A stretch of 64,000 bases of DNA from Prostheceraeus crozeri (lineage: Eukaryota > Platyhelminthes > Polycladida > Euryleptidae): assembly GCA_907163375.1 (NCBI GenBank), contig CAJQUW010003213.1, positions 1 to 64,000 of the forward strand. Direction: 5' to 3'. The position numbers and the translations under genes are program-made. This document shows positions 11,960 to 43,894 of this stretch, one piece after another (positions within the stretch are counted from its first letter, which is position 1; each line of letters begins with the position of its first letter). Under the pieces are notes generated by a model, which worked only from the letters and a program-made list of their open reading frames with translations, searched no databases and was not told the origin of the DNA.

Positions 11960-13739
11960 CAGGGTGATTCCGATCTTCCCGTCACTTTTCAAGTAAGGAC
12001 TACAGCTGTATCACATGTCTGGTTGTAGTGATGGTTCATGATTTATATACTACGTTTCATGGCCTTTCAAATCGTATATTATTTATTTTCTTGTGATCTG
12101 CATTTCTGCTGATACGAGCAATTGAAATTGTTTACCCATATTACAACTTTTTAAATCAATTTTAAGTATTTTTTTAATTTTTTTTATTCCTAGTCTACTA
12201 TTTATTTATTTTATTTTACTATTTAAGTTATTTTTTTCATTTGATTTCGAAAAACATTTCATATCCAAAAAAACTTTATTATAAGTGACAGGTATGCAGT
12301 AACGCAAAATTAACTCACAAGAACTGTTGAAAGTGACCACCACCATTCTCAGAACACAACTCGCATCGGCGCAAGAATGACCTGTACGAAGATCGCATCA
12401 TCTCGACCTCCACGCTATCGAGTAAGCTCGTAAGTCTTTCTTGCAAAGCTTCAAGAGTACGAGGACGTGGATCTCTGTATAGTTTGTCACGAATATAGCC
12501 CCAAAGCCAGAAATCGTTTACTGCTAAATCAGGGCTTCTTGGTGGCCAGTGTATCGGCCCAGCACGACCACTCCATCGGTTCTTCAGCTTGACGTTCAGC
12601 AGACAACGAACAGAATTGGCATAATGTGCAGGTGCACCATCCTGCTCATAAAATTGACGTCGATTTCGTCTATCACTTAGTAGCGGCACAACTTTGTCTT
12701 CAAGGATAGACTGGTAGCGCTGTCCATTCATTGTTTCTTTCTGCACATCGTAAGTGATGCCGTGTTGTGGTGATATCATTGTCCAGCAAGTGATGGAAGC
12801 AGACTTTAATGGTTTCACGATAACAGCGTGAGGATTTTCTTCCGCGTAGATGAAGGCGTTGTGAAGGTTCACAGATCCATTCAAGTGAAACGTTGGTTCA
12901 TCGGGGAAAACGATATTTCCAACGAAATTACTGTCGCGCTGTTGATGTTGAGGGATAAGGTTAGAAAACTGGAGTCTTTGAACTTTATCGTCGTCCGAGA
13001 TCTCTTGCATGCGGGTAAACTTCCAAGCTCTCAAACCTTCATCTTTCAACACTCTGTTCACCGACGATTGTGAAACGCTGCAGAGCTGAGCTGCCTTTCG
13101 TTGCGAAAGTGTTGGATCATCACCATAGGCCTCGACTATTTCGTCTCGTTTGTCGTCGGAAAGCCGTCGATCTGAATGGTCACCGACTCTTGCATTTTCG
13201 GTGAGAGATAGCGAGGTTTTATAGCGCTTTGCCCACCCAATTAAGGTTGTACGTGGTGGAGCTTCTTTCTTAAAATCTACACGAAATCGTCGCCTTGTAT
13301 CTTCAGGATATGAAGAGATTGTATGGGCCACGGCCGTCGCAATTTTTTCATTCGTGAAGCCAGGATAGTTCATTGCTGTCAAGTGTTGATAGTAAATAAA
13401 TTTCAGCCAGTTTAATACCGTCTACACTGAAAAGTCAATCTCAATTAACTTTGCATGGTGTATCTCAAGGCAAGCAATTATTAGATATCTATGCTGAATG
13501 CGGCTGATATTGATTGTTGCGATGTTCCTGTCATAGATATTGATTTAAAAAGTTGTAATATGGGTAAACAATTTCAATTGCTCGTATCAGCAGAAATGCA
13601 GATCACAAGAAAATAAATAATATACGATTTGAAAGGCCATGAAACGTAGTATATAAATCATGAACCATCACTACAACCAGACATGTGATACAGCTGTAGT
13701 CCTTACTTGAAAAGTGACGGGAAGATCGGAATCACCCTG
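11960..13739 (-). mobile_element. Mariner/Tc1-superfamily element, apparently complete
   Basis: Inverted repeats of 201 bp (11960-12160 and 13539-13739) start CAGGGTGATTCCGATC and appear identical by eye along their whole length. TA lies on both flanks (11958-11959 and 13740-13741). The element is 1,780 bp and contains one long minus-strand transposase gene. Near-identical ends plus an open gene point to a recent insertion and possible autonomy. Confidence 0.9.
12315..13382 (-). CDS. Mariner-like DDE transposase (DD41D pattern)
   Basis: A 355-codon open frame encodes the transposase that would mobilise this element in the nucleus. The N-terminal half has a helix-turn-helix region (LSQRKAAQLCSVSQSSVNRV, about residues 92-111). 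The catalytic acids are in VFPDEPTFHLNG, FYEQDGAPAHYA and WPPRSPDLAVNDFW. Counting from the Asp of EQDG to the Asp of VND gives about 41 residues, a DD41D rather than DD34D/E spacing. The frame fills the space between the two inverted repeats and no stop or frameshift is seen. About 150 bp upstream of the ATG separates it from the right repeat. Confidence 0.88.
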   Translation of the reverse strand: MTAMNYPGFTNEKIATAVAHTISSYPEDTRRRFRVDFKKEAPPRTTLIGWAKRYKTSLSLTENARVGDHSDRRLSDDKRDEIVEAYGDDPTLSQRKAAQLCSVSQSSVNRVLKDEGLRAWKFTRMQEISDDDKVQRLQFSNLIPQHQQRDSNFVGNIVFPDEPTFHLNGSVNLHNAFIYAEENPHAVIVKPLKSASITCWTMISPQHGITYDVQKETMNGQRYQSILEDKVVPLLSDRRNRRQFYEQDGAPAHYANSVRCLLNVKLKNRWSGRAGPIHWPPRSPDLAVNDFWLWGYIRDKLYRDPRPRTLEALQERLTSLLDSVEVEMMRSSYRSFLRRCELCSENGGGHFQQFL

Positions 13740-21891: not shown

Positions 21892-21897
21892 TATGGC
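21892..21897. repeat. 6-bp target-site duplication, left (TATGGC)
   Basis: TATGGC directly precedes the left end of the Polinton and is repeated exactly at 43889-43894. Polintons make 6-bp duplications on integration. Confidence 0.92.
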
Positions 21898-22684
21898 AGT
21901 AGTAATAAAACGGCGAACACTCGACCGGCGCGCCCCCCCTCTGGAACGTTAGAGTTGGTAGAGGTGTGCAAGGAGTCGTGGTGTGCCGACCATGTTCGCT
22001 GACGTCCCCCCTCTGGAACGTTAGAGTTGGTAGAGGTGTGCAAGGAGTCGTGGTGTGCCGGCCAGGTTGGCGTGGTGTGCCGGCCATGTTCGCTGACGTC
22101 CCCCCCTCCCCTCGATAAAACGACAGAGTGTCGTGGTGGTCTTGAGCGACCGCCAGGTTTTGGCTTGGTTCTTTTTCGTGAGATCTCATGACTTTTGGTG
22201 TGAAAATGGGATGTTTCGATTGGAAGCAGTGCTCGGAGGGCTTTGCAAATGTGATTTTTGGGCTGAGCGTCAAATTCTGCATCTGTGGTATGATTTCCAG
22301 CTCAATCGGTGAAAAAAAATGTTCAACATTTTTCGGAAAAACGACAGAGTTAGCGGCGAATTTGGGTTGGTTTTGGTCTGTAGCGCCGAAACGAAGCATC
22401 GGATGGGAAAACGGAGGCCAGATTCGGATTCAGCGTCAAATTCTGCATCTGTATGGTGAATTTGAAAGCAATCGGAGATAAAAAATTTTCGCTGACGTCC
22501 CCCCCCTCGGCAGCGTTGCTTTCAACTTTGGTTCTAGAGATCGTAGAAGGTCGTGCAATAGCTCGTTCGAAAGCTAAGAGTGAGAAAAATTGAGGGAAAG
22601 AAACGGCTTGTTCATATCTGTCTTCGTTTAGATGTGAGACGCCATTTAAGATTTGGGAGATTGGCGAAAAAGCGACAGAGTTAC
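21898..22684. repeat. Left terminal inverted repeat of the Polinton
   Basis: About 787 bp is the inverted copy of 43100-43888. Near the tip it contains two tandem units of about 72 bp (starting CTCTGGAACGTTAGAGTTGG at about 21939 and 22011). Three copies of GCTGACGTCCCCC lie at about 22000, 22094 and 22490. Further in are diverged repeats with AACGGAGGCCAGATT. Open frames in this region are non-coding shadows duplicated at both ends. Confidence 0.88.
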
Positions 22685-22809: not shown

Positions 22810-22820
22810 TATATAAATAG
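22810..22820 (+). promoter_or_regulatory. TATA box of the left spliced gene
   Basis: TATATAAATAG lies about 90 bp upstream of the ATG at 22908, just inside the left inverted repeat. It is placed to drive the left + strand genes. Confidence 0.6.
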
Positions 22821-22907
22821 CGAGCCTTCCACAGTGAGAATCATTCCATCGCTGAATCACACGAGTGACGGACGCACATTTTCTCTCTATTCTATTATCC
22901 AACTAAA

Positions 22908-23682
22908 ATGGTAAGTCGCTACTTCCCTCCCTCTCCTCCCTTGAACGTAAACTTAATACAATCTTTTTCATTTTCAGGCATCTACTCCATCTGCTGCACT
23001 AGTAGGACAAAATGGCGGTCAAACGTTACAAGGTTCGCTACGATCAGATCATCTACAACTGAGGCCAGTGGAAGAAACAACCAAGGTACATAATCCTACA
23101 CCGCTACAGCGTAAATTTAAACAAATCTTGCGTTATGACGATCATAGCGTAGTACTCCAAACGGGAATGCTCCCTTCCACGGATGTCAAGATAATGAGCA
23201 ATCAGTATGGGGACTACATACTGATCCCCGTGAGTCCGTACATTCGCCGCCAACTTGATATTATTGAGGAGTACGTGACATTAAATATGGACATTCCTAC
23301 TCCTCTTGCTCAAGAGTGAAAGGCGAGAGATGACAAGGATACTCCCTATAGAAAGATTTGGGATGGTAATCAAATTTGCCTACCGGTATCACATTGGTGC
23401 ACTTACTATAAGAAGGAGGGAGATCATTCAACATCCATCACATGTCACGAGCTCGGAGAAGGTACTTGGGATATCCTTTTCAAAGTGAATGGGCTATATT
23501 ATGGTCGACACAAGGATAATAAAATAGCCTCTCTCTCCATGCATATGGAATCCATCCTATATATTCCAAAACCACCCAACGTGGACGACATAATTGCTCA
23601 AATCCTTAACAGCAGTGGTACGAAGCGCAAGTCGGAGAAGAATGCTGCCTCAAAACGCAAATCAAAGAAGGAGAATTACTAG
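22908..23682 (+). pseudogene. Spliced Polinton gene of unknown function, in-frame TGA
   Basis: The first coding exon is the ATG itself (22908-22910), followed at once by the donor GTAAGT. A 67-nt intron ends in CATTTTCAG at 22977, and exon 2 opens with GCA TCT ACT. The frame runs 114 codons to a TGA at 23317-23319. The same frame then stays open to a TAG at 23680-23682, so a single nonsense codon splits it. The C-terminus has a Lys/Arg-rich tail (SKRKSKKENY) resembling a nuclear localisation signal. I do not recognise a domain. The polymerase gene at the other end has the same ATG-only exon and the same 67-nt intron length. Confidence 0.65.
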
Positions 23683-23716
23683 TCCTTTCCTAACTCTACC
23701 CTATGACAATTCGCTT

Positions 23717-23842
23717 ATGTGCTTTGAGTGTCGTAGACGTGGTCTTATTAGATACATTTTACTTCTTCGTTGCAATCATATCATTTGTGTATTTTGTCGT
23801 GAAAAGCATCGATGTAATTCTTCATTTTGTAATATGTTATAG
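23717..23842 (+). CDS. Small RING-like zinc-finger ORF
   Basis: A 41-codon frame begins MCFECRRRGLIRYILLLRCN and continues HIICVFCREKH. The spacing Cys-x2-Cys, Cys-x-His-x2-Cys-x2-Cys is that of the first two-thirds of a RING finger; the last Cys pair is loose. It may be a complete mini-RING, an exon of a larger spliced gene, or a remnant. A RING could act as a ubiquitin ligase on host or element proteins, but only the cysteine pattern is seen. Confidence 0.4.
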   Translation: MCFECRRRGLIRYILLLRCNHIICVFCREKHRCNSSFCNML

Positions 23843-24512: not shown

Positions 24513-24905
24513 ATGTCTTTCTCAAATGACTGCGGAACATTACATTTTCATAGGCAAAGTTTAAAAGGAGCTGTTCAAGATTATGCGATAAATTTTCATA
24601 AAGATGAGACCGACATCGAAGCAGTGATCGATGATGCTAGCACTCTATTTCTAGAGTTAATGAATACATTCTCTGATAGCATTGTCATGGCGCGATTAGT
24701 TGCGAAAATTAAATTTAGTCATTTTGGAAAGGAGGAGGTGGAAACTCGCTCTTTCATGGAAGTGGTAGATCACCCCGAAGAATTTTTTAAAAGACATATG
24801 ATAAAAATTGCTGAACGTCTTAACGCATTTAACCATCATGGTAGCAGTCTAGTGATTGAAGCGATTTCAGATATTCACATTCAACTTTCTATAAAGAAAA
24901 ATTGA
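24513..24905 (+). CDS. Polinton protein of ~130 aa, polymerase-leader-like
   Basis: An intact frame from ATG 24513 to a TGA ending at 24905. No catalytic motif is visible. The predicted alternation of strands and helices, with FHKDETDIEAVIDDASTLFL, MARLVAKIKFSHF and SSLVIEAISDIHIQL, recalls the region after the zinc finger in the N-terminal extension of this element's own polymerase (GALFNNLVNFRMKALIFLKI to ETAMIKITLLEN). It may be a paralogue of that leader domain. The similarity is weak by eye. It overlaps no other likely gene and lies 3 bp before the next ATG. Confidence 0.5.
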   Translation: MSFSNDCGTLHFHRQSLKGAVQDYAINFHKDETDIEAVIDDASTLFLELMNTFSDSIVMARLVAKIKFSHFGKEEVETRSFMEVVDHPEEFFKRHMIKIAERLNAFNHHGSSLVIEAISDIHIQLSIKKN

Positions 24906-24907
24906 AA

Positions 24908-25231
24908 ATGCAGTGGTACTTGATTGTAGCACAACTGGTTTTCGAGCTATGTCTGCTCACTCTCGAAGTATATTCCTTCTGTACATGCGTCTATTATTTA
25001 GAAAAGGCTAGCAAATTCATATCTTCAAAAAGACTTGCTATAGACATCAGAAACGGTGAAACTATGTGTTGTGATGTATGTAAGCGAAAGGATGGAAATG
25101 AAAAGCGCATCTTCAAGAGATGTAAGCATGCTTTTTGTCAACGCTGTTTCATACGTAATTGCATTCAACTTTGCAAATGTAACCACTGTGATATTGCTCA
25201 TTTCGAGTGTCACTTATACCGCAATAGTTAG
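24908..25231 (+). CDS. Membrane-anchored RING finger protein
   Basis: The ATG at 24908 is 3 nt after the previous stop. The 107-aa product starts with a hydrophobic stretch (VAQLVFELCLLTLEVYSFC, residues ~7-28), long enough for one membrane span or a signal anchor. The C-terminal half has a RING-type cluster: CCDVCKRKDGNEKRIFKRCK, then HAFCQRC and CKCNHC, giving Cys-x2-Cys, Cys-x-His-x2-Cys-x2-Cys and Cys-x2-Cys. RING proteins usually recruit ubiquitin-conjugating enzymes. A membrane-tethered one could alter host surface proteins or membranes, which is inference. Confidence 0.65.
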   Translation: MQWYLIVAQLVFELCLLTLEVYSFCTCVYYLEKASKFISSKRLAIDIRNGETMCCDVCKRKDGNEKRIFKRCKHAFCQRCFIRNCIQLCKCNHCDIAHFECHLYRNS

Positions 25232-25282
25232 TACCTATGCAAATGTGGTAAAGATAGGTTTTAGCAAAGACTAACACGGAAA

Positions 25283-25639: not shown

Positions 25640-25670
25640 TTATGCAAATGTTGAATCTCAAAGTATTAAA

Positions 25671-26288
25671 ATGGATTTCAGACTTCAATGCGATAAAGTT
25701 CTGACTGTATCAGGTCCATCTCATGCAGGTAAAACTGTTTTCACGCTGAATTTATTGGATAAAAGAAGGGAGTTGTTTAAGGAACCTATCAATCGAGTGA
25801 TTTGGTGTTATGGTATTTATCAACCGTCGCTGTTTCAGGAATTGCAAAGTCGCAACTTTATTCGACATGAAGGAATTATTGCAGTGGATAAACTTCAGTC
25901 TAATGATGTTGTTGTATTGGATGATTTATTAAAAGAAAGTAAGAATTCCAAAGATGTTACAGATATGTTCACTCGCGCAGCACATCATAAAAGGTGCTTT
26001 ATCATCTATATCACACAAAATTTGTTTCCTGATGGAAAAGAAGCTCGTACACGAAACCTGAATACACACTATTATGCTATTTTCAAGAATCCGCGAGATA
26101 AAAGTCAATTTGAAATTTTAGCGCGACAAGTTGCACCAAGAGGATCAAAAGCCTTAATTGAAATTTTTCAAGCAGCTACTGAAAAACCACACGGTTACTT
26201 ATTCATTGACTTTACGCAAGAGTGTCCGGAAGAATTTAGATTTCGAAGTGATATTTTGAAAACTCCCATGATTGTCTACAAACTATGA
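25671..26288 (+). CDS. FtsK/HerA-type genome-packaging ATPase
   Basis: This ATPase would pump element DNA into capsids. The ATG at 25671 is preferred because it follows the previous stop and leads directly into strand one and the P-loop. Walker A is GPSHAGKT (residues ~15-22). Walker B is VVVLDDLL (~82-89). A polar block FIIYITQN (~112-119) fits the sensor motif of this family. The length of 205 aa is usual for Polinton ATPases. Its stop overlaps the next ATG (ATGA at 26285-26288). No damage is visible. Confidence 0.9.
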   Translation: MDFRLQCDKVLTVSGPSHAGKTVFTLNLLDKRRELFKEPINRVIWCYGIYQPSLFQELQSRNFIRHEGIIAVDKLQSNDVVVLDDLLKESKNSKDVTDMFTRAAHHKRCFIIYITQNLFPDGKEARTRNLNTHYYAIFKNPRDKSQFEILARQVAPRGSKALIEIFQAATEKPHGYLFIDFTQECPEEFRFRSDILKTPMIVYKL

Positions 26289-26977: not shown

Positions 26978-27193
26978 ATGAAGCAGATGTGTTGCTTGCC
27001 ATGTAATGAGCCGCCAGAGGTGAATGTCGTTGTCACTTGCACTTGCTGCGCCAGCTCTCACAATGAAACCCCTAAGCAATGTGAACACGATCGCAAAACC
27101 GCTAAAGCTAAATGCTGCAGTTGTTGTAAATGTAGAAAGGCAAGAAAACAAAAAGATGAGAAGGAGAAAAAAGAGTCAGTCGTCATCGACTGA
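26978..27193 (+). CDS. Cys-rich basic ORF overlapping the integrase start
   Basis: A 71-codon frame from ATG 26978 has 14 cysteines, including CCLPC, CTCC and CCSCCKCRK, and a Lys/Glu-rich tail. It overlaps the first part of the integrase frame in a different phase. Paired cysteines could bind zinc, but the pattern fits no family I recognise. It may be a real small protein or chance coding of a Cys-codon-rich leader. Confidence 0.35.
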   Translation: MKQMCCLPCNEPPEVNVVVTCTCCASSHNETPKQCEHDRKTAKAKCCSCCKCRKARKQKDEKEKKESVVID

Positions 27194-28244
27194 ACGCTTG
27201 AAGTCAATCTATTATGATGTAAAACATCCGGCAGGATTTGCATCGATCAAGAAATTATCAAAAGCGAGTGGTCTTTCACAATCACAAGTGAAACGATGGT
27301 TAAAGGGTCAGGCTACCTACACACTCCACAAACAAGCGAAAAAGAAGTTTCGCACCCGCCATTATATTGTTCATGACATCGATGAACAGTGGCAAGCAGA
27401 TTTGTGTGATGTCGCCTCCATTTCAAAACATAACTCGGGCAATAATTTTATTTTAACCGTCATTGATATTTTCTCGCGTTATGCGTGGGCTCAACCTTTA
27501 AAAACTAAAGAAGGGAAAGGAGTAGCAAAAGCATTCCAAACAATTTTTCGAGAAGGTCGCATTCCAAAAAGAATTCAGAGTGATCAAGGAAAAGAGTTTG
27601 AAAATCAGCATGTGAGAAGATTATTTGAGAGGCATGACATTGAGTTGTTTAGTGTAAAGAGTGCTTATAAAGCTGCACTCGTTGAACGTTTTAATCGCAC
27701 ATTAAAAAATCGCTTGTGGCGACATTTTACTGCCAACTTGACACAAAATTGGACAAAGGTTCTACAAGATACACTCCATGCCTACAATCACTCTATCCAT
27801 CGTTCTATTGGACTCAGACCAGTAGATGTAAATGCTGACAATGTAGATAAAGTGCGCGAATCATTCCAGCGTAAACGCACTCATGTGAAAAGTGATGTGA
27901 AAATTGGTGATAAAGTTCGTATCTCAAAAGTGAAGAGTGTTTTTGCTAAAGGGTACCTTCCGAATTGGACAGAAGAGGTATTTACAGTATCAAGGATTGA
28001 TCAAAAAGACTCTCCCACCACCTACAAGTTGAAAGATTACGATAATGAAGAAATTGAGGGTAGCTTTTACCGCGATGAGATTGAGGTAGTCACTGAAAGT
28101 GAAACATATTTGGTAGAGAAAATCATTCGATGTAAAAAACGACAAGGTGAAGAATGGTGTCTTGTTAAATGGACTGGCTATCCTTCAAGTATGAACTCTT
28201 GGATGCGTCGTGCCGACATCTTTCATCTTAGTGATCGACAGTGA
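27156..28244 (+). CDS. INT: Retroviral-type integrase with chromodomain
   Basis: This integrase joins the element ends to host DNA and makes the 6-bp duplication. I choose ATG 27156 because upstream codons of the same frame overlap another ORF and look non-homologous. A helix-turn-helix-like segment comes first (ASIKKLSKASGLSQSQVKRW). The catalytic core follows: WQADLCDV (Asp ~82), IQSDQGKEF (Asp ~143) and ALVERFNRTLKNR (Glu ~177). A C-terminal chromodomain (YLVEKIIRCKKRQGEEWCLV followed by KWTGYP) would read histone marks or guide target choice. The frame is fully open at about 362 aa, a normal length. Confidence 0.93.
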   Translation: MRRRKKSQSSSTERLKSIYYDVKHPAGFASIKKLSKASGLSQSQVKRWLKGQATYTLHKQAKKKFRTRHYIVHDIDEQWQADLCDVASISKHNSGNNFILTVIDIFSRYAWAQPLKTKEGKGVAKAFQTIFREGRIPKRIQSDQGKEFENQHVRRLFERHDIELFSVKSAYKAALVERFNRTLKNRLWRHFTANLTQNWTKVLQDTLHAYNHSIHRSIGLRPVDVNADNVDKVRESFQRKRTHVKSDVKIGDKVRISKVKSVFAKGYLPNWTEEVFTVSRIDQKDSPTTYKLKDYDNEEIEGSFYRDEIEVVTESETYLVEKIIRCKKRQGEEWCLVKWTGYPSSMNSWMRRADIFHLSDRQ

Positions 28245-28285
28245 TTCATGCAAAGTTGCAACTAACAATGTTTAGGGTTTGAGCT

Positions 28286-28743: not shown

Positions 28744-30021
28744 ATGGAGTGTAAAATTTCTGGGTTTTGTTTGTTTGATCAACAAGCCATACAGACAGAT
28801 ATTCTTAGTTCAAGTATTGTAGATTATCATCCTCGAACAGCTGAGAATGCTGGCCCCATTGAATTTGTTATTCCTGGTGGTAGTGATGACTACATAGATT
28901 TGAGTTATGCGATGGTTGATTTGAGGTTTAGACTTCAGCAAGCAGATGGAACTGCTATTGACGATGCACATAAAGTTGGACTGAACAATTTACCATTGAC
29001 TACATTACTTCGTGATGTTTCTCTAACGATTGGAGAGCAGCAGGTGGAAGGTGGTCAAAGCGATTATCCCTATAAATCATATTTCAATCATGTATCACAG
29101 TTTCATCCAGCAGCACAAAAAAGTCATATGGAAGCCATGGGATGGTACAGAGATGAAGCAGGAAAATTTGATGTTGAAACAAACAGTGGCTTTGTAAAGC
29201 GATCTGCTATGATTAAAGATAGTAGAGTATGTCAGCTATATGGTCCGCTGAATTTAGACTTCTTTAGACAGTCAAAGTTTTTACTCTGTAATACCAGCAT
29301 GCGACTCAAGCTGACATTGAATAAGCCTGAATTTGCGCTGAATGCATTTGCTGAAGTTGACAATTTTAGAATTCATGTGGAAGATATTGCACTTTACATT
29401 CGTCGAGTAGTACCGAATCCAAGTGTCATTAGAGGGCATGCTGAAGGTCTTAACCGCCAAAATGCCATTTACCCCGTTCAGCATACAACGCTTCTCACCT
29501 TTACAATTCCGAAAGATCAAAAGAGTTTCATGAAAGATGGCCTCTTTCCATCGGAAGCACCGAAGCTCCTCATGGTGGCAATGGTTGAAAATGATGCATT
29601 TAATGGTAATATAAAGAAGAATCCTTTCAATTTTAAACACAATCAGTTAAGTGAAATTGCTTTACGTGTAAATGGTGTGAGTCATCCTGGTCCACCCTAC
29701 AAACCAGATTTTGCTTCGGATCAATTTATGCGCAGTTATATTGATTTTATGGATGTCTTTGGCTTTTACAATACGGATGACACCAACGGACTCACTATGA
29801 AAGAGTTTAAGAGTGGATATACTATTTATGCATTTGATTTGACTGCTGACAGCGATATTAGTGCACCCTATCGTCAAGCGAACGTGCCTCATAATATTCG
29901 TTTGGATTTGACGTTCAAAAGAACACTACCTGAGACGATCAATGTATTAATTTATGCAGTCTTCGATTCAAATATTGAAATTACAAAGTATCGTGACGTG
30001 ATTCTTCAGTATAATCGTTAA
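28744..30021 (+). CDS. Major capsid protein (double jelly-roll, F54H12.2-like)
   Basis: The 425-aa frame matches the family often annotated F54H12.2-like in animal genomes, now known as Polinton/adintovirus hexon. Recognisable blocks are PIEFVIPGGSDDYIDLSYAM (residues ~38-57), SDYPYKSYFNHVSQF, MGWYRDEAGKFDV, NDAFNGNIKKNPFNFKHNQL (~280-300), GYTIYAFDLTAD and the end LPETINVLIYAVFDSNIEIT. The frame is intact. Its TAA overlaps the ATG of the protease gene by one base. It should form the icosahedral shell. Confidence 0.85.
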   Translation: MECKISGFCLFDQQAIQTDILSSSIVDYHPRTAENAGPIEFVIPGGSDDYIDLSYAMVDLRFRLQQADGTAIDDAHKVGLNNLPLTTLLRDVSLTIGEQQVEGGQSDYPYKSYFNHVSQFHPAAQKSHMEAMGWYRDEAGKFDVETNSGFVKRSAMIKDSRVCQLYGPLNLDFFRQSKFLLCNTSMRLKLTLNKPEFALNAFAEVDNFRIHVEDIALYIRRVVPNPSVIRGHAEGLNRQNAIYPVQHTTLLTFTIPKDQKSFMKDGLFPSEAPKLLMVAMVENDAFNGNIKKNPFNFKHNQLSEIALRVNGVSHPGPPYKPDFASDQFMRSYIDFMDVFGFYNTDDTNGLTMKEFKSGYTIYAFDLTADSDISAPYRQANVPHNIRLDLTFKRTLPETINVLIYAVFDSNIEITKYRDVILQYNR

Positions 30022-30483
30022 TGAGTTGGTTGACTGCTGACGATATTAAAACTAAAGTACAGCGTAATGCAGACGAAGCGACGTTGAAAGCTTTCGATAA
30101 TGTCTATTCGCTCGATACCTTACCACCTGCAGTAAATCACTATCCCATCTTTATTGTGCTAACACACTCATTCGCAGAATTTAGGCGGTGAGCATTGGAA
30201 AGCGATCTTTATTGGAGAAGACCGACGTGGTGAACTATTTGACTCTCTTGCTCAACCTCCAAATATACCAACACAGCAGTGGTTGAGAAAAAATACGCGT
30301 CAATATCAGCGAAATGAACGCATACTACAACATCCACTTTCATCAACGTGTGGTGCTTTTGTGCTGTACTTCATCTTAAAACGTTTACATGTATCTCGAT
30401 TTGTATCTATTATTCAAAACTTTTCATGTAATCCATCCTCTAATGAAAAAATGATTTGTAAGTTCTATCATGATTTGAAATAA
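30021..30483 (+). pseudogene. Adenain/Ulp1-like cysteine protease, frame broken (or spliced)
   Basis: Adenain-type proteases cut capsid precursors during maturation. The frame from ATG 30021 (MSWLTADDIKTKVQR) ends at a TGA at 30189-30191. The rest of the enzyme continues one frame over: GGEHWKAIFIG with the catalytic His at 30193-30195, LFDSLAQPP, and SSTCGAFVLY with the catalytic Cys at 30349-30351. Either an indel lies near 30150-30180, or a 46-nt intron is removed: GTAAAT at 30132, CTAAC branch-like site, TTCGCAG ending 30177. The latter would keep the frame. An AATAAA overlaps the stop. Confidence 0.75.
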
Positions 30484-30514
30484 AAACTTCATGTTGGAAA
30501 AATTGTTTTTTATT
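30479..30514. terminator. Back-to-back poly(A) signals between convergent genes
   Basis: AATAAA on the + strand (30479-30484) overlaps the protease stop. TTTATT (30509-30514), the minus-strand AATAAA, overlaps the stop of the TBP-like gene. The two convergent genes are only 26 bp apart. Confidence 0.6.
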
Positions 30515-31055
30515 TTACAATCCGCTGGGTACGTACATACTCGATGAGATAGTCTAGGATCACATTTGCTTGCACATGAGATTTTAGTCCAGTAATGATC
30601 ACTTTACTATTATGAAAGATTGCAACATGCACAGGTAACCAACAACTAATGAGAGCTGCAGGAAAAAGTTCGGGTTCATAACAGAAATTGTAACTGCTGG
30701 TACGAATCTTCAAAAATGATACACTTTCACTCAATTGAGTAGAGATCACCATATTGTCCACAGTCAGATTCGACATCACACACCTCTCTCTCTTCCATAT
30801 CCGACGTAGTAGTCTCTGTAGCTCTAAGCGCATTGACTGCGTCGATGAATGAGAAAGGGCGCCGAGAATCTGTACAGTTCCATTTGGGAAGAGTTGAAGA
30901 TTCCGTGAATTGTTCATCTTCACCACTAACATTTGAGGTCGGCCCGGGTAATACTTGCTGTTTGGAAGGTGTTGGTGTAATGTTGTGAGACCGATTTTGG
31001 TATAGAGTCTGAAGCGACGGAGAATGTTGACGATGGTGTAGCGATGGCGCTTCAT
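30510..31055 (-). CDS. TATA-binding-protein-like protein
   Basis: The ATG at 31055 opens a 181-codon intact frame with the two-repeat layout of TBP. Repeat one reads RYTIVNILRRF, then YYPGRPQMLVVKM and LFPNGTVQILGALSHSS. Repeat two reads VDNMVISTQLS, NFCYEPELFPAALISCW, HVAIFHNSKVIITGLKSHVQ. YEPELFP is identical to the box in cellular TBP repeat two, and IF-x2-(S/G)KV-x2-TG also follows TBP. TBP bends TATA DNA and nucleates transcription; TATA-like boxes precede genes at both ends of this element. The full saddle is nearly TBP-core length (~180 aa). The first 329 nt overlap another frame of the PC4-like gene. A TBP-fold assignment is strong by eye; the function in the element is inferred. Confidence 0.78.
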   Translation of the reverse strand: MKRHRYTIVNILRRFRLYTKIGLTTLHQHLPNSKYYPGRPQMLVVKMNNSRNLQLFPNGTVQILGALSHSSTQSMRLELQRLLRRIWKRERCVMSNLTVDNMVISTQLSESVSFLKIRTSSYNFCYEPELFPAALISCWLPVHVAIFHNSKVIITGLKSHVQANVILDYLIEYVRTQRIVK

Positions 31056-31377
31056 GATGAAAAAATGAGTAAATTGAGCGATGTACCTTCCTTTTATACT
31101 TTTCCCAACTACCTTGATGAAATGTGAAGTTAGTATGAAGTTGGGAATGATAGAGTTGAATTCGCCGATTGTTGACGCGCAACCAGATGCGATTTCCAAT
31201 ACGTGAATGTCTTTTCATATAGAAGTATTTCAAATCCTTCATGATATGATGTAGAGATTGAAAATGACGATAAGATACAGCAAACTCTCTTCTCACATTT
31301 CCAGTTGAATCTTTGAAATAGACGTTTTGATCATGATCCGTTTCAATACGTTGTAGGGAATCTAATTTCCAACTCAT
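30727..31377 (-). CDS. PC4-like protein, copy A, with C-terminal extension
   Basis: The 216-aa frame starts MSWKLDSLQRIETDHDQNVY. Residues ~1-108 are clearly paralogous to the neighbour at 31400-31756 (shared LDSLQ, IWLR/VWLR, IQL-x-HS, WEKY+R-x-VHRSI). The block IWLRVNNRRIQLYHSQ followed by FTFHQGSWEKYKRKVHRSI resembles the strand-strand-helix of PC4/p15 single-strand DNA-binding coactivators; this is tentative. The Ser/Thr-rich, acidic C-terminal half (for example EEREVCDVESDCGQYGD) has no counterpart in copy B and lies over the TBP-like frame. It may be an overprinted extension or chance opening. Confidence 0.6.
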   Translation of the reverse strand: MSWKLDSLQRIETDHDQNVYFKDSTGNVRREFAVSYRHFQSLHHIMKDLKYFYMKRHSRIGNRIWLRVNNRRIQLYHSQLHTNFTFHQGSWEKYKRKVHRSIYSFFHHEAPSLHHRQHSPSLQTLYQNRSHNITPTPSKQQVLPGPTSNVSGEDEQFTESSTLPKWNCTDSRRPFSFIDAVNALRATETTTSDMEEREVCDVESDCGQYGDLYSIE

Positions 31378-31399: not shown

Positions 31400-31756
31400 T
31401 TAAGATTTGCATAGTAGGGCGATGAACTCACGACGAATAAATGTCATGATGGAGCGATGTACGTATCTTCTATACTTCTCCCAATTATATTTGCGAAATG
31501 AAAAACAGTTTGCGGAATGAGAATGACAGAGTTGAATTTCATTGTTGCGACGTCGAAGCCAAACTTGATCACCTAAGGAGATGAATCTTAATGTTTCAAA
31601 ATATTCCAAATCCCTCATGATATCATTGCGGTTAACAAATTGTCGCCATGTTAATGTAATACCTCTTGCGGTATGACCATGAGAATTTTTGAAATGCACG
31701 TTTCCATTACGATCAACTCTGATATATTGTAGAGAGTCCAAAATCCAAGTCTTCAT
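31400..31756 (-). CDS. PC4-like protein, copy B
   Basis: I prefer the ATG at 31756 (MKTWILDSLQYIRVDRNGNV) because it matches the start of copy A; an in-frame ATG also lies at 31768. The 118-aa product covers only the conserved domain and ends soon after VHRSIMTFIRRE. Tandem paralogy with copy A is plain from shared residues. Fold and role (single-strand DNA binding or transcription) are tentative. Its start is about 36 bp from the presumed start of the divergent capsid gene. Confidence 0.65.
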   Translation of the reverse strand: MKTWILDSLQYIRVDRNGNVHFKNSHGHTARGITLTWRQFVNRNDIMRDLEYFETLRFISLGDQVWLRRRNNEIQLCHSHSANCFSFRKYNWEKYRRYVHRSIMTFIRREFIALLCKS

Positions 31757-31791
31757 GATGTTATGCAAAGCTGCAGATCATCAATATAAAA

Positions 31792-33195
31792 ATATCGTTT
31801 TATCATATTTTTCTTAGCAATGCGGCCGCAAATAGATTTGCTAGTAATCGAGCCGCACTCTTTTCTACTCACATTGATCATACACAACAGCTAAATGGAA
31901 AGTGGGAAGTGGGTGTCACTCAACTTGTTCATAGCAACTGTGTCTATACTTTTGATCATGAGGTGATGACTATTAATATGAGACGCACAGCTGCTTACCA
32001 ATGTGAAAAGGGCTGCCGAGTATACATTCCACAGTGGCCAAAGAAAGATCTCTTATCATGTAAAAAGTTTATATATGATTTCCTGAATAAAGCGTGTAAA
32101 CATATTGTCCAATTTACTCCGCACAATGATGATTATAATTATAATTATGTACATCATGTAGTTGAGAAAGATTGGATTGCTGGTCTAAGTCCAAGTTTAA
32201 TAAATGATTTAGGTTACCTCGCTAGCGCCTTAACAAGCTATGATAATTATAACGTTAATTACCACATAAGTGGTCATAAACAGTTAATATATCGAGAGGA
32301 AGCTTATTATGTAGATCTTATTCCAAGAAATGAGAAGACGTTGGTGAAGAAGATTGTGATTAAGCCAAGAAAGACAAACTTGACTCCTGAAACATTAATG
32401 AAGAAATTTAATTATCTCCTTCGAGTTGATGGTAAACAAGTGGCAACATTGACTTATATCAAATCATCTAATCATATTGCAATAAGTAAATTAAATGATG
32501 ATGATCTAGTATTAGTTTGTTCAAAAGATTTTCATCAGTTCTTACGACATCGTTCTGCAGCTGTTCATGGAAAATTTTATATGCAACATTTGCCATGTGA
32601 AAGGTCAAATCAATTTGATACAGAATGGACCGTATCTTTATACAGAAAGTGTGTAGAGCCTTTAGGTGGTATCTTACATGAAACAAGAGTGTTGATGCCT
32701 CGCATTATTACTTCAGTTAAATTGGTTGTAGATTATTTAAATGAAGTGATTAATGACCAACATATTTCATTTTCTGAAAAAGAAGGTGCTTTGTCTCTCA
32801 CTATAAGTGGAAAAGGTATTGAACTAATTATGGATAAAACTCTAATGGACATTTTGGGTTTTGATCAAAATATCTTTAAAAGTGGTACTGTAACCAAAGC
32901 TAGCGCAGACATGTCGCTATCGCGTCGTATTAACTATTTTCAGATATATTCCAATATTGGTGAAGATGTACGTGTGGGAGATGTTGAAGCTCCATTGCTA
33001 GCAATGATACCATACCAGCCAAAAAGCTGCAGTATTTTATCTGAGCATACTTTCAAGAAAGTGCATTATACAAAGCTGAAATCAAACTACATCCCACAAA
33101 TTGATATTGCAATTTATGACGATGCTGGTGCGTTGATTCCTTTTCATAAAGATGCTGTAACAAGTATCACACTCCATTTCCGAATGAAGAGTTAA
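31792..33195 (+). CDS. Capsid-associated (minor capsid/penton-type) protein, start codon apparently lost
   Basis: The frame is open from before 31792 to TAA at 33195 (about 467 codons from 31792). It contains GKWEVGVTQLVHSNCVYTF near the start and, near the end, VRVGDVEAPLLAMIPYQ, SNYIPQIDIAIYDDAGALIP and ITLHFRMKS. These blocks are typical of a second structural protein of invertebrate Polintons. Homology with the downstream paralogue (SNASM...LEGEWEVGV versus SNAAA...LNGKWEVGV) shows the N-terminus extends upstream of the GTG at 31909, yet there is no ATG there; the likely start position holds ATA (31792-31794). A non-AUG start, an upstream exon (TTTTTCTTAG acceptor at ~31826) or start loss are all possible. 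Confidence 0.68.
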   Translation: MSFYHIFLSNAAANRFASNRAALFSTHIDHTQQLNGKWEVGVTQLVHSNCVYTFDHEVMTINMRRTAAYQCEKGCRVYIPQWPKKDLLSCKKFIYDFLNKACKHIVQFTPHNDDYNYNYVHHVVEKDWIAGLSPSLINDLGYLASALTSYDNYNVNYHISGHKQLIYREEAYYVDLIPRNEKTLVKKIVIKPRKTNLTPETLMKKFNYLLRVDGKQVATLTYIKSSNHIAISKLNDDDLVLVCSKDFHQFLRHRSAAVHGKFYMQHLPCERSNQFDTEWTVSLYRKCVEPLGGILHETRVLMPRIITSVKLVVDYLNEVINDQHISFSEKEGALSLTISGKGIELIMDKTLMDILGFDQNIFKSGTVTKASADMSLSRRINYFQIYSNIGEDVRVGDVEAPLLAMIPYQPKSCSILSEHTFKKVHYTKLKSNYIPQIDIAIYDDAGALIPFHKDAVTSITLHFRMKS

Positions 33196-33234
33196 TGCAA
33201 AAGTATGCTAATATATTTTTCCAATGTCATTAGT

Positions 33235-34710
33235 ATGGAAAGTGAAAATAGAGATTCGTTTCTAATTTACTTACCCAGTAATGCTTCTATGGATAAATTT
33301 CCCAAAAATAAACCATCAGACTATCGAGTAGAATTAAATCGTCCACTACATTTAGAAGGTGAATGGGAGGTTGGCGTTTCTAGTATTTGCTATGATAGCA
33401 ATATTCAGAATGTGAATGATGTGGAAGAAATGATATTGACTCCTCGCACCCATGATGGAATAACGATGAATAATGCATTCCAGTTCCCATACAATTTAAC
33501 GTCAGATGGAAAGTGGAACTATGAATGGATTCAGATAAAATCAGATTAATATGGTCCATTTGGGAATGAGAAAATTATTAAGGCATTCAACAGTGGTAAT
33601 ACTTCCATCATGAAGAATAAGGATCAGAAAGTTTATGAGTTTACTATCTATCATTGGAGTGGGAGACAGTTCCTTCGCTTTCATTTTTTTACTAAAGGTC
33701 TTACGCTGAGGTTGGATAATGAATTCTATCCACATCTCGGTTTTGGCCATGGACTACATCTAACGTCAATTGCTACTGCAAATGTTAAAAAAGTTTATTC
33801 AAATTGAATCAACAAATTTCATTATAAATTTAAAATATTTTATGAAGATGTTGTAGAATGTGAAGAACGCATCATTTTGAAAAAGCGTGGTGTTCAACCT
33901 TTATCATTTATTGAGTTAGTAAAACGATGGAATGAGACTGTGGGTAAGAAGTATGGAGAGAAAATTATGGCGGACAAAGATAAGTTGGTCATTCAGAAAT
34001 ATAATGACAAACTTACAGTTTATTTCTCTCCAACCTTGCGTCATTTTGTAAGACATTATACACCTATTATTGGAAGTGGTGTGGTGTATGCTTCTCATGA
34101 ATATTACACTAAAGCTGATTCAGTTAATGATGAATGGTGGGTGGACATCTATGGTGATCGCATCAAGAAAATTTACCAGTCTTATCAAGAATCTAAAGTT
34201 GCTATCAATATAATGCCGCGTCTATATCATACAGTTGAAAGCTTCATTCATGTAGTAAATCCTTATATACAACAGAAGTTGAAGCATGTGATGAAAAGTA
34301 AATATGATGTAAAGACACACCACATTTCGTTTTCAATTGAAAATCAACGCGTTGTTCTGAAACTGGGCGATGACATTCAATGTCAATTGAGTAAAAATTT
34401 GAAAAAACTCTTTGGTTTTTCAATGCTACAAAATATGTTTACTGCTGCACATGCGATTGGTATAGAAACACCAATGACACTTGATAAACATGAACAACAC
34501 CTTTACATTCAAAGTGATTTGATTCTACCTATTTCTGTTGGCGAGGAAAAAGAACACATTTTATGTGATTTCATTCATGATAAGGATGCTTTATATGGAA
34601 TAGTCTAGAAGATGTTTCAACCTATTTTCTACCATCCTGTTATCAAACAAACTATACCCTCTATTTCTATCAAAATTACAAATGGTCTACATGAATGCAT
34701 CCATGTCTAA
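33235..34710 (+). pseudogene. Second capsid-associated protein, paralogue, three in-frame stops
   Basis: From ATG 33235 (MESENRDSFLIYLPSNASMD) one frame continues for about 1.47 kb, paralogous to the preceding gene. Both have LPSNA-like and GEWEVGV blocks near the start and a similar C-terminal region (YHPVIKQTIPSISIKI). It is interrupted by TAA at 33547-33549, TGA at 33805-33807 and TAG at 34606-34608, with no frameshift between them. The final stop is at 34708-34710, before the terminal LHFR-type block of the other copy, so the end also seems truncated. An in-frame ATG at 33205 is an alternative start. This reads as a decaying duplicate or second structural protein. Confidence 0.72.
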
Positions 34711-35057: not shown

Positions 35058-38000
35058 TTATGCTAAGACGTCTCCTGAATATGGTAGTGTGAGTTTAATT
35101 CTTTTGGGTGGTGGTATGTCTGTATCAGGATGTCCATGTGGAAGAGATGTGTTATGTCCTATCCAACACCTCTTATCCTCCCATGCTGAAAGCGCCCGTT
35201 TCCTAAAAGTATGAGTTTTGATCTCATGCGACTTAGATTTTAAGATTGTCATATTGACAAACGTTATATTTTTATTTCTATAGGCTTCCCTGAAATTTTT
35301 ATGTTTCATGTTAGAGACCAATGATCTTGATATGCCTTTAGCACGCTTAATACTATCGTCGCTATCCTTTAATTTCATACTGTACATTTTTGGGCGGAGG
35401 AGAATCATTTCATCTATTTCCTTCCCTGCTATCTCATCCTTAAAGCATCCAAGTTTTGCCTTATTTTTGATGGAGTAGAGTGGATGATCAGTAGGATAAT
35501 TTGATGTATCAAAATATCTTTCTAAAGATTTTCCTACTTCATTGAAATTTAAATCTTTTTGAGTGGTAATACCTAAGAAGAAACTATCTGTATCACCACC
35601 CAACAAACGAACCTCTTTTACGAGAGGACATGGTTTTAGTATTTTATAAAAGAGTTGGTACATTTCAAGCTTACAGTAATCTAGTACAGCTTGGCCAATA
35701 TAGATGGGCTTGCACAACTCAACTTCAGATTTTATCATTTTAACACCTACAAGGTCCTCATCGATAATGTCTCTATCGATGAATAGAGATGATGAGACCA
35801 ATTTCTTAAATTTTGTAACATCATTGACTAGTTTATAGTTTACACGTTTTCTAACATCCTCCATCGTCTTACCAAATAGACTATTGTTCTTATACTTATA
35901 AAAATCTTTTTCAAAGTTATTTTGGGCGAGTGCACGTTTCTGGTTGTTGATATCAATACATGATTTGAGGAAGGCTTTCTGTCTAAATTTAATAATGCGG
36001 TGAACTCTTTTTAAAATCATGCCCATTTCTAAATAAAATTTTAAGATGCTAAAGTGAACTAGATAGTTTTCCTTATCATATTGGGTGAGTAAAAGTTTGC
36101 GGCAAGGCTTATAGTCGGGTTGATCGCATGATTCTAAATCTTTATGAAATTGTTTCATAAAGTCGGAAAACATATCTTTGGTCACTTCACCTGATTCGGG
36201 TGCGAGTGGAAAATCTACGGTTTTATGTTTAATATTATTTGGATAGATTAGATCTATCTCAAAATAATATCCCCAATCACCTTCATCTGGAATTGCTAGC
36301 ATGTTAGAAGGGTTGGAGAGATGCTGAATTTCACTATCATCTAACCAGCTAAACTCAGAGTTAGGTAGTGGTTTGGATAGTGAACTACCATATAAATTAT
36401 TTTGGTCATCATAATTAAGATGAGTCTGATCATCGCCTACTAATTTTGATTTTAACCTATGTTTATTTATAAATGTGAGACCACCGCGAATTCCTCGCTC
36501 AAATAAATTATACATCTCTGGATCTTGTAAGAGATGAATGGTCTCACCAGTCATTTTAAAAGCAGACTTAAGTGACATGGCTGACAGACTGACAAAGTGG
36601 ACGGGATCTAACTTATCTTCTTCTAATGCCACTCGTCGAAACTCCTGAAATACATCAGCCAGCAAAAATACATCTAACTTAAGATAGGCAATCATATATT
36701 CGCCAAATGTATGGCAGTCAAATTTTATCCATGCATCTTGTGCATGATCATAATCTTCGGCCTTACATTCTGCGCCGGTCAAATCATTTTTAAATTTATC
36801 TATGGGCGGAAGAGAAGTCTCGCCGAGTTTACTAATCGCATCAAAATATGCATATGGAAAGACTCCTTTCCGTGTGATGACTTCATCGGTTAGATTTGGA
36901 TATTGTTTCTTAAGATTTTGTGTTAGTGGAAGAGACTTTAGATTTTGTACGAGAGAGGCCAGTGATGTAGTCATAAATTGGTAGGAATCTAAAACTTTTA
37001 TATCAAAATATACCGTCTTATTTTCTTTAGTTTTATCGACAGGCACTTTTACTGTCATGGCCATAAACTTCTCTCTCGTTTGTGCTATTACATCAAGCTT
37101 CCACTCTTTCATTTGACCTAAACCTCCTTTTATTATCATATGGCTGTCGTAGCCCTTGAAATTATGGAAAATGACGGGTAATGTACGCCGTTTCATCCTA
37201 AGTGAAAAATTGCATTTTGAACATAGTGCGTTTCTAAATTTACCAGTGATGTGATCATGGTCGCGCACTTTCTTAATCTTATCATCATCAAATGTTTTAC
37301 TACATTTGAGGCAAACGTTGCAACTATCAAATTTTTCTTGATCATCTGCTGTCACATACAATGATCTGCGATAGAGTTCACCATCATACTTTTGTTGAAA
37401 TTTTACAGCCTGTTCGAGGAATTGTAGGAATTGGTAAATGCAATCCTCACCTTGCCAGACGTGCATTTTATTTTTTCTATTTTGGAAATGGTCATGCCAT
37501 CCTTCATAGCAGGAAATGGCTGCTGCTCGATGGGTGTTATCATCGATATAGCATTCGATGTCAGCATAAATGACACGAAGAGGACTTAGTTCATCGCCAT
37601 TCTCTCTATATGAAAACTCCTTATCTTTGGGCATGCGCTCCATTCGTAGTTTACCTCGCTTACACCATTCGTAATGAGCTTCAAATCTATTTTTAATCCT
37701 AAAGTTGCGAATGCATCTGTCACAGTAATAAATCTCTGATGAGCTAGAATTTCTTAAGTGGTGGTATAAGCGAAAAAGTTTGGGAATACCGCAGTAGTGC
37801 CATTCTTCACTATCATCCTGTCTTACTAATAAAAGGTTGACAACGTGGTCATAACAACTCGAACGCGAGCTGTAGCGGACACCCTTCAATCCCTTTTCCC
37901 AAACATGGAGGACTATTTTGATGTTGTTCAATTTTTCAAATTTTTCTATATCTTTAATTTTCATATCTTCACTATTGCAGTCATCAAACTTTAATTCATT

Positions 38001-39065
38001 CTCCCACTGTTGATACTTACTGTTACGGTATCGGCTATTCTGTACATCATTATAGTGGAGAATGGAGAGGACGGCATACTTAAATCATTGCGATTCGCAA
38101 TCTATGGAAATGACTGCTGCTTTATTTCTTAAATTTTTCGGAAGTTTAAAGGAGCCTCGTCCAGAGTAGTTCTCTAATAAAGTGATTTTAATCATGGCGG
38201 TCTCAATACCATCAAAAACGAGACCACTATCAAGCTCGTTAAATTTATCTATGTTTAATTTTAACCCTTGGATATGAAAATTTATCCAAGACTCGCAGTC
38301 TACAACTTCGGTTGCAGGAGAGGAGGGTATGTGAAACTCCAACCTCTCTACTATTTGACCAGTATAGTGGTCGATTTTTGCATATTTTATTTTGAGAAAG
38401 ATGAGCGCCTTCATTCTAAAATTGACTAAATTGTTGAAGAGCGCACCAATCAAAGATGAATTTTGATGAAACCATTCTTCAAAGTCAGTAATGGTTTCTG
38501 AGGATTCCATCTGGTAGCTCCTCACTAAATTATTTATCGACACTTCAGAGAGTCGGATAGAGGAGGTGCTGTTAGTATAACTATCGTCACTGTGTGTATG
38601 TCGAAGTCTATGTGAAGATAGTTCAAAATGTGACTCAAAAGACTGAATGCATAAATCGCAAGAAAAGGAGACATCGTTAACAGAATAATCCCCACCTTCG
38701 GAGATTGATGCTGACTTAGGTCTACAAACACCTCGCTTGATGTGTCGGGCGAGATCACTCTTCCTCGTGAAGATGTTTCCACAGTCAGCACATTCCCGAT
38801 CGTTGCATTCCCGCGACAATGTTGACATGGAGTCGCTGTTGTTATCCGACTCGCTCGAGATGGGACTGGTATCACCTGAAAGAGAAATCATTCTTTCATC
38901 TCTGTTAATGTCTCAGTGTATTGTTACAACCTACCTTCACTCAACAGCTCTAAACTTTCCTCGAGAAGCGAGCGCTTTGATGATGAAGTAGATGCCTGAA
39001 ATTGAGAAAGATGCTATTAACCTAACGTTTAAGGGAGATGACCGATGAATTCCTTAATTTACCAT
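35058..39065 (-). CDS. POLB: Protein-primed family B DNA polymerase, three exons, one in-frame TGA
   Basis: This enzyme replicates the element from its ends. Exon 1 contributes only ATG (39065-39063), then a 67-nt intron. Exon 2 is 38995-38935, followed by a 59-nt intron (donor GTAGGT, acceptor CTTTCAG), and exon 3 starts at 38875. The N-terminal extension has a C2H2-type finger (CADCGNIFTRKSDLARHIKR) and a second Cys/His pair. A TGA at 38085-38087 interrupts the frame, which stays open on both sides. The 968-codon remainder carries Exo I VIYADIECYI, a Cys/His insertion (CLKC, RDHDHITGKFRNALCSKCN), Exo II FHNFKGYDSH, Exo III YLKLDVFLLADV, polymerase A DDQNNLYGSS, B KNNSLFGKTMED and C LGGDTDSFF. 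Motifs appear intact. Confidence 0.9.
38085..38087 (-). other. In-frame TGA inside the polymerase gene
   Basis: The minus strand reads CAA TGA TTT. Codons before (ending SIDCESQ) and after (starting FKYAVLSILHYN) are in the same frame, with no other break. It is a single nonsense change or a recoded codon. Confidence 0.85.
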
Positions 39066-39233
39066 TTCAACGAAATTAAGTCAAAATGTGATACTTTGAT
39101 AGTCAGAATGTAGTAATTGACTCAAACCAAAATAGGATACGTCAGCAACGTTAGATTATATTTGAGTGGAGGGAAAAGCTCACTTAGTGCTAATATATCT
39201 CAAATATCGAATGAAATCTAGTCTATTTTTCCC

Positions 39234-39242
39234 TTTTATATA
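39234..39242 (-). promoter_or_regulatory. TATA box of the polymerase gene
   Basis: TATATAAAA on the minus strand lies about 170 bp upstream of the ATG exon at 39065. The divergent ORF at 39340 starts about 100 bp away on the other side, so this ~270-bp interval is probably a two-way promoter. Confidence 0.6.
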
Positions 39243-43099: not shown

Positions 43100-43888
43100 A
43101 ACTCTGTCGTTTTTTCGCCAATCTCCCAAAATCTTAAATGGCGTCTCACATCTAAACGAAGACAGATATGAACAAGCCGTTTCTTTCACTGATTTTGTCT
43201 CACTCTTAGCTTTCAAACGAGCTATTGCACGACTTTCTACGATCTCTAGAACCAAAGTTGGAAGCAACGCTGCCGAGGGGGGGGGACGTCAGCGAAAATT
43301 TTTTTATCTCCGATTGCTTTCAAATTCACCATACAGATGCAGAATTTGACGCTGAATCCGAATCTGGCCTCCGTTTTCCCATCCGATGCTTCGTTTCGGC
43401 GCTACAGACCAAAACCAACCCAAATTCGCCGCTAACTCTGTCGTTTTTCCGAAAAATGTTGAACATTTTTTCTCACCGATTGAGCTGGAAATCATACCAC
43501 AGATGCAGAATTTGACGCTCAGCCCAAAAATCACATTTGCAAAGCCCTCCGAGCACTGCTTCCAATCGAAACCTCCCATTTTCACACCAAAAGTCATGAG
43601 ATCTCACGAAAAAGAACCAAGCCAAAACCTGGCGGTCGCTCAAGACCACCACGACACTCTGTCGTTTTATCGAGGGGAGGGGGGGACGTCAGCGAACATG
43701 GCCGGCACACCACGCCAACCTGGCCGGCACACCACGACTCCTTGCACACCTCTACCAACTCTAACGTTCCAGAGGGGGGGACGTCAGCGAACATGGTCGG
43801 CACACCACGACTCCTTGCACACCTCTACCAACTCTAACGTTCCAGAGGGGGGGCGCGCCGGTCGAGTGTTCGCCGTTTTATTACTACT
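43100..43888. repeat. Right terminal inverted repeat of the Polinton
   Basis: Inverted copy of 21898-22684, ending in TTTTATTACTACT. It includes the two ~72-bp tandem units and the GGGGGGACGTCAGC blocks. Identity is high by eye over about 790 bp and then falls off at the subterminal repeats. Confidence 0.88.
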
Positions 43889-43894
43889 TATGGC
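43889..43894. repeat. 6-bp target-site duplication, right (TATGGC)
   Basis: Exact match to 21892-21897. Confidence 0.92.

Follow-up and report, generated by a model that had tools for sequence, protein, structure and literature searches.

The window, the whole stretch of 64,000 nucleotides analysed here, contains a Polinton that carries an intact gene for a protein which is nearly certainly a member of the TATA-binding protein (TBP) family, with one lobe of the predicted TBP saddle largely kept and the other rebuilt. Judging from the sequence, it is plausible that the element supplies a promoter-recognition factor of its own. The more specific reading favored here, to which we assign a probability of about 0.5, is that the element-encoded TBP would act as the Polinton's own promoter-recognition factor and would bring TFIIB and RNA polymerase II to non-TATA genes. 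Polintons are thought to lie near the root of several groups of eukaryotic DNA viruses, and to our knowledge little has been established about how they control their own transcription.

The TBP-like open reading frame runs on the minus strand from an ATG at 31055 to a stop ending at 30510 (30510..31055), encodes 181 amino acids and is intact in the present copy of the element. TBP (PF00352) is the sole Pfam family found for the protein at E up to 10, with a match (E 2.5e-19) that scores 69.3 bits where the cut-off is 22.9 and that falls in two stretches. Against the PDB, phmmer gave matches to 35 different sequences with E no higher than 10, the best at 1.6e-12; these are named as TBP/TFIID or TBP fusions with one exception, the ECU04_1440 protein, and this too aligns as a TBP; the family profile of the protein reaches PDB TBPs at E down to 1e-24. 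In a profile–profile comparison (hhalign) with a four-sequence alignment of cellular TBPs, the probability was 99.3 and E was 1.8e-20 over 169 columns that cover both lobes at 21% identity. The heptapeptide YEPELFP is identical in human and yeast TBP. What the earlier note had read by eye, namely a gene at these coordinates, both TBP-like halves and the TBP box, is thereby borne out at the level of sequence.

The element spans 21898-43888 (21,991 bp) and is bounded by terminal inverted repeats of 601 bp (21898..22498, plus strand) and 603 bp (43286..43888, minus strand), with a 6-bp target-site duplication, TATGGC, on either side (left 21892..21897, right 43889-43894). It encodes an rve integrase with a chromodomain (27024..28244, plus strand; PF00665, E 5e-11; PF00385, E 6.2e-7) and what is probably the C-terminal piece of a Ulp1-type protease (30163..30483, plus strand; PF02902, Peptidase_C48, E 0.00054, with a score of 20.3 bits that falls just short of the curated 20.7); the protease is split within 30021-30483, its N-terminal piece lying in another frame. 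A polymerase-like frame (35058..38912, minus strand) contains an endonuclease VII domain (PF02945, E 3.9e-7). The repeats, the duplication, the integrase with its chromodomain, the protease piece and the endonuclease VII frame together identify the element as a Polinton, so that the TBP-like gene does sit inside an element of the kind to which it had been assigned.

The remaining genes are less readily classified by database matches. A capsid-like ORF (28744..30021, plus strand), with 262 relatives at E up to 1e-3, is a candidate for the major capsid protein; it has no Pfam match, and its profile matches nothing in the PDB. The 968-aa polymerase-like ORF (35058-37964, minus strand) is, by its motifs, a candidate PolB; Pfam and PHROGs give endonuclease VII alone (residues 216-254), and the PDB gives no match. 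A packaging-ATPase-like ORF (25671..26288, plus strand) has weak matches to AAA_14 (E 0.0065) and Pox_A32 (E 0.022), both below the cut-off. Although its terminal inverted repeats are ~99% identical, the present copy is defective, with in-frame stops in the polymerase-like frame (38085-38087), in the leftmost gene frame (23317-23319) and, twice, in frame 33196-34608 (33547-33549 and 33805-33807).

Several further features of the window were recorded. Frames 31909-33195 and 33196-34608 (plus strand) have by eye a common motif ending W-E-V-G-V and are perhaps penton-like duplicates; pieces of the two searched in Pfam gave nothing significant. Two small cysteine-rich ORFs (23594-23842 and 24860-25231, plus strand) look RING-finger-like by eye, and Pfam gave nothing significant for 24860-25231. 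For the capsid-like homologue P0068, an 86% identical protein is attributed to a Pseudomonadota MAG (AAGK05_12265); here Polinton DNA may have been binned by mistake with bacterial contigs. The flanks hold LINE-type, Tc1-like and hAT-like elements (2518-6668, 12315-13382 and 58569-59849): the LINE-type element has endonuclease, reverse transcriptase and a PHD-like ORF (below cut-off), the Tc1-like transposase gene is likewise below cut-off, and an hAT-like transposase gene is also present.

Immediately upstream of the TBP gene lies an ORF that overlaps it in another frame (30727..31377, minus strand), and the N-terminal part of this ORF is 42% identical to 31400-31753, in a 118-aa neighbour gene (31400..31756, minus strand) with three homologues. 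By eye, the two paralogues had brought to mind PC4, a transcription coactivator, and this idea found no support: the profile of human PC4 was matched at no better than E 0.25 and probability 0.2, and the best matches were at E 0.024 in Pfam (one of five members) and E 0.08 in the PDB.

The TBP of the window has 61 homologues at E up to 1e-3 (105 candidates), which are 36-81% identical in local alignment, and all 62 members of the resulting alignment, the window protein included, match PF00352. A tree was made of 41 rows, namely 26 of the 62 family rows, three eukaryotic TBPs, that of M. jannaschii and 11 of 14 IMG/VR viral TBP loci; L005 (protein the same as L004), L008 (near-identical to L006) and L013 (frame ending after 98 residues) were omitted, and the viral rows are all IMG/VR loci. 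The 26 family rows form one group with support 100/100, far from the four cellular and 11 viral TBPs. The stem leading to the family measures 1.29 changes per column on its side of the midpoint root, against 0.99 on the other side; the tree is probably subject to long-branch effects, and its M. jannaschii row is flagged for composition. Phylogeny, which had been proposed as a check, sets the family apart from both the cellular and the IMG/VR viral TBPs, and a host, an archaeal-like or a viral TBP may have been its source.

No relatives of the element were found in IMG/VR, scanned with the window TBP, the TBP family alignment, the capsid-like protein and its alignment, or in the GTDB genomes scanned with the TBP-family and capsid-like alignments, and the genomic context of the homologues is therefore known by traces only. 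One trace is the overlap with the upstream gene: among the 12 homologues that extend 55 residues or more ahead of the RPxM motif, a W-x-x-Y-K peptide is possible in the shifted frame in seven, 53-56 residues before that motif, compared with 5 of 10,558 at later positions as a control. Another is given by contigs. The nearest TBP homologue (P0002, 81%) and a neighbour-gene homologue (P0065, 71%) each have a longest contig of 1771 bp, so that one of the three neighbour-gene homologues has its longest contig in common with a TBP homologue (expected 0.015), and two of the three have theirs in common with the two best capsid-like matches (12876 and 11119; expected 0.037), the capsid-like side of the comparison being the best 120 of 262 matches. 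A coincidence between TBP and capsid-like homologues (longest contig 7106) is uninformative, with 0.52 expected. The overlap and the common longest contigs point indirectly to a common neighbourhood among the relatives.

A further regularity concerns the sequence directly before the start codon, where the reading IKx8Hx2-3M occurs in 9 of the 12 homologues with enough upstream residues, as compared with a control rate for IKx8H of 1 in 10,020 residues. This is what would be expected from TATAAA and CAT 30 bp apart, and conservation of the IK...H reading can also arise from coding constraint of the overlapping upstream gene. Among the more distant members P0049-P0062, the two with long upstream readings carry neither of the two context traces.

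The case for a changed specificity comes from the residues of the two lobes, which were counted over the 62-row family alignment in the numbering, and with the DNA- and TFIIB-contact roles, of yeast TBP. In the C-lobe, the contacts N159 (62/62), V161 (62/62), F190 (61/62), P191 (62/62), F207 (62/62) and T215 (61/62) are kept, as are the TFIIB contacts of the C-terminal stirrup, E186 (61/62), E188 (62/62) and L189 (55/62), and K211 is kept in 46 of 62. Other C-lobe positions vary: R196 is Arg in 31 of 62 and Ser in the window protein; L205 is kept in none, with A, T or S in all 62; S209 is kept in two and is mostly N (48/62); and V213 is kept in four and is mostly I or M.

The N-lobe retains N69 (50 of 50 non-gap members) and F116 (62/62). 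F99 has become Pro in 58 of 59 non-gap members, including the window protein; L114 has become Gln in 58 of 62, V122 Gln in all 62 and T124 Leu in 56 of 62, and at V71 Met predominates (38 of 55 non-gap). Q62 of P0001, a new N-lobe residue, is invariant (62/62). Three of the four DNA-kinking Phe residues are thus present (F116, F190 and F207) and F99 is lost, a departure from canonical TBP. Among the IMG/VR viral TBPs (14 loci), F99 is kept in 12 of the 13 rows that have a residue there, or in 10 of 11 once the near-copies L005 and L008 are removed; in the exception, L012, Phe99 and Phe116 are both altered. Because the new set of N-lobe residues is nearly invariant, it speaks for constraint, not decay, and the exchange of Phe for Pro together with the new Gln argues that the site read by the element TBP is not a standard TATA box. 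The pattern suggests that the N-lobe may read an altered half-site while the TFIIB-binding end has been preserved.

A candidate for such a site is ATGCAAA, which stands 46 bp before ORF 25283 (25237..25243, plus strand), 29 bp before the ATPase-like ORF (25642..25648, plus strand), 38 bp before ORF 28286 (28248..28254, plus strand), 35 bp before the ORF starting at 31377 (31406..31412, minus strand) and 40 bp before the ATG at 33235 (33195..33201, plus strand). These are five starts with the motif 29-46 bp ahead, one of which counts only if the start is 33235 rather than the in-frame ATG at 33205, 10 bp from the motif. A further copy lies 146 bp before the GTG that is the candidate start of ORF 31909 (31763..31769, plus strand), and the variant ATGCAAT lies 31 bp before the 24513 ORF. 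The motif is absent before the capsid-like, integrase and protease starts. When 21 starts are chosen mechanically, ATGCAAA comes out as the most frequent of the 7-mers (four starts; p 0.021 over all 7-mers, with random positions in the element as reference) and ATGCAA as the most frequent of the 6-mers (five starts; p 0.037), p values that depend on the choice of start codon. The occurrence of ATGCAAA near the TATA position of several genes, at a corrected p of ~0.02, is suggestive. For TATTWAA, the herpesvirus late motif, a search of the 120 bp ahead of each of 13 starts gave a single occurrence, which lies 7 bp from the ATPase-like ORF.

These sites might instead be octamer (POU) sites for a host factor, or be due to chance, and in either case be unrelated to TBP. 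This is a real possibility, if one short of an even chance. Three of the pre-start sites read, as 8-mers, ATGCAAAT, the classic octamer, and the motif shows no overall enrichment (8 in the element, 14 outside), with two of the eight sites in the element preceding no listed start. However, five of the eight stand 29-46 bp before starts, which is core-promoter distance.

A second set of promoters has a TATA box. The TBP gene is preceded by TATAAAA, 43 bp before its start codon (31092..31098, minus strand), and by an initiator-like TCATT (31064..31068, minus strand) whose A lies 32 bp past the first T of the box. The earlier note had placed TATA boxes ahead of the genes at both ends of the element, and these are indeed there, at 22810 and 39242: TATATAAATA with TCATT (22810..22845, plus strand) is the putative core promoter of the leftmost gene, and TATATAAAAG with TCATT (39210..39242, minus strand) that of the rightmost inward gene, on the polymerase side. 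Each of the three boxes (22810, 39242 and 31098) has a TCATT ~30 bp further on. This pattern, which was defined after the promoter of the TBP gene had been seen, has six matches (five sites) in the element and one in the other 42 kb, and 200 Markov control sequences contained 0.7 on average and never more than 4. Of the five sites, the two at 29071 (plus strand) and 42742 (minus strand), have no obvious gene downstream, and most other starts in the element have no TATA box within 200 bp. The TATA/initiator promoters, that of the TBP gene among them, resemble the ordinary promoters of host TBP, and the link that had been drawn from the TATA boxes to the element TBP may run the wrong way round. 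The two terminal genes (22835-22991, plus strand, and 38982-39124, minus strand) have a like 5' layout, TATA/initiator and then start codon, and in both the start codon is directly followed by what appears by eye to be an intron-like GT...AG stretch with a similar acceptor.

That the TBP gene is one of three with a TATA/initiator promoter would fit a protein that is simply a second ordinary TATA reader, boosting the promoters at both ends and its own in a positive loop, and so would the retention of three of the four kinking Phe and of both groove Asn. Nevertheless, Pro has replaced one kinking Phe in 58 of 59 non-gap members, two new Gln have arisen in the N-lobe and 12 of 13 IMG/VR viral TBP rows retain that Phe; we consider an ordinary TATA reader unlikely. 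Improbable, too, is a decoy whose stirrup would sequester host TFIIB (or which would block TFIID) and so lower host transcription, with no recruitment of polymerase to element promoters: E186 and E188 are nearly invariant and the N-lobe is remodelled, as such a decoy would allow, but several C-lobe DNA contacts are conserved as well as the TFIIB ones, and the invariance of the new Q62 of P0001 (62/62) favors a DNA site. A move to single-stranded DNA or to replication or packaging work, for which the lost Phe and the precedent of Giardia TBP might speak, is quite improbable, since the element TBP has three of the four Phe, unlike the Giardia protein, and keeps the TFIIB stirrup, whereas Giardia is described as having no TFIIB (PMC12209930).

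If the protein is instead the Polinton's own promoter-recognition factor, host TBP would first switch on the TATA/initiator genes, that is, the left-end gene, the polymerase-side gene and the TBP gene. The C-lobe of the element TBP would then kink DNA and hold host TFIIB, its rebuilt N-lobe would read a different half-site, and RNA polymerase II would thereby be brought to other genes, several of which have ATGCAAA at the TATA position. A bolder version, which we put forward as a speculation and think unlikely, is an early-to-late switch in a Polinton clade: host TBP would fire the TATA/initiator promoters, and the element TBP, its N-lobe rebuilt with Gln and Pro for a half-site containing G/C, would use (T)ATGCAAA core promoters to claim host TFIIB and polymerase II for the late genes, so that a TBP would have changed its alphabet mainly by remodelling one lobe.

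If a 22-kb element has a dedicated TBP, then promoter recognition owned by the virus extends beyond giant viruses, mirusviruses and herpesviruses. The family provides, moreover, a natural experiment with two similar halves, one largely held and one rebuilt over 62 sequences, and for this reason how TBP reads A/T and rejects G/C becomes directly testable. What we rate as new here is the presence of a TBP in this kind of element, together with the rebuilding of one of its lobes. In the portions available of the Polinton, Maverick and adintovirus literature (mostly without subscription papers; virophage terms included), no TBP was found, and searches within six texts gave no TBP of a Polinton, Maverick or adintovirus (PMC11071296, PMC11071308, PMC10120064, PMC4642659, PMC4028283, PMC8097293). 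Since most subscription papers lie outside this literature, the absence is no proof of novelty.

Apart from its TBP, the element is similar to Polintons/Mavericks and adintoviruses in its terminal inverted repeats, 6-bp duplication, rve integrase, protease piece and size. With cellular TBPs (human, yeast and archaeal), its TBP has in common the two repeats, YEPELFP, the C-lobe Phe pair, the Asn pair and the TFIIB stirrup residues, but it also differs: it is 21% identical in the profile alignment, is changed at F99, L114, V122 and T124 of the N-lobe, has no N-terminal extension and is encoded in a mobile element. Viral TBPs, unlike this one, belong to large DNA or archaeal viruses, have the standard Phe99 in 12 of 13 IMG/VR rows and, for the 11 IMG/VR loci in the tree, are not close to the family. 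True TBPs are present in 59% of mirusvirus genomes and 0% of Nucleocytoviricota for that gene cluster (PMC10132985), and virus-encoded TBPs are described for Chrysochromulina parva virus (PMC12085832) and megavirus (PMC11464507); in passages of these and two other papers, the TBPs are those of mirusvirus-like elements, of mirusviruses, of giant viruses or of cells (PMC10675990, PMC10132985, PMC7786948, PMC12085832, PMC11464507). An annotated TATA-box-binding protein of Haloarcula virus HJTV-2 (MZ334513, 31251-31595) is a weak match to the window TBP (E 0.2).

Two further proteins offer parallels. Giardia TBP, in which three of the four kinking Phe are substituted and which binds single-stranded DNA (PMC12209930), is likewise a natural TBP that has lost kinking Phe, unlike the element TBP in that three of the four are lost in place of one. 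KSHV ORF24 is described as a TBP mimic of viral origin that serves late TATTWAA promoters and has a polar interface with DNA (PMC12529657). It differs from the element TBP in being multidomain, in working with other viral factors and in requiring four TBP-like Phe (PMC12529657), and the likeness drawn here is one of function. As a TBP-like fold of a virus by which host polymerase II is directed to non-TATA late promoters, however, ORF24 provides a functional precedent for the role proposed here for the TBP of this Polinton.
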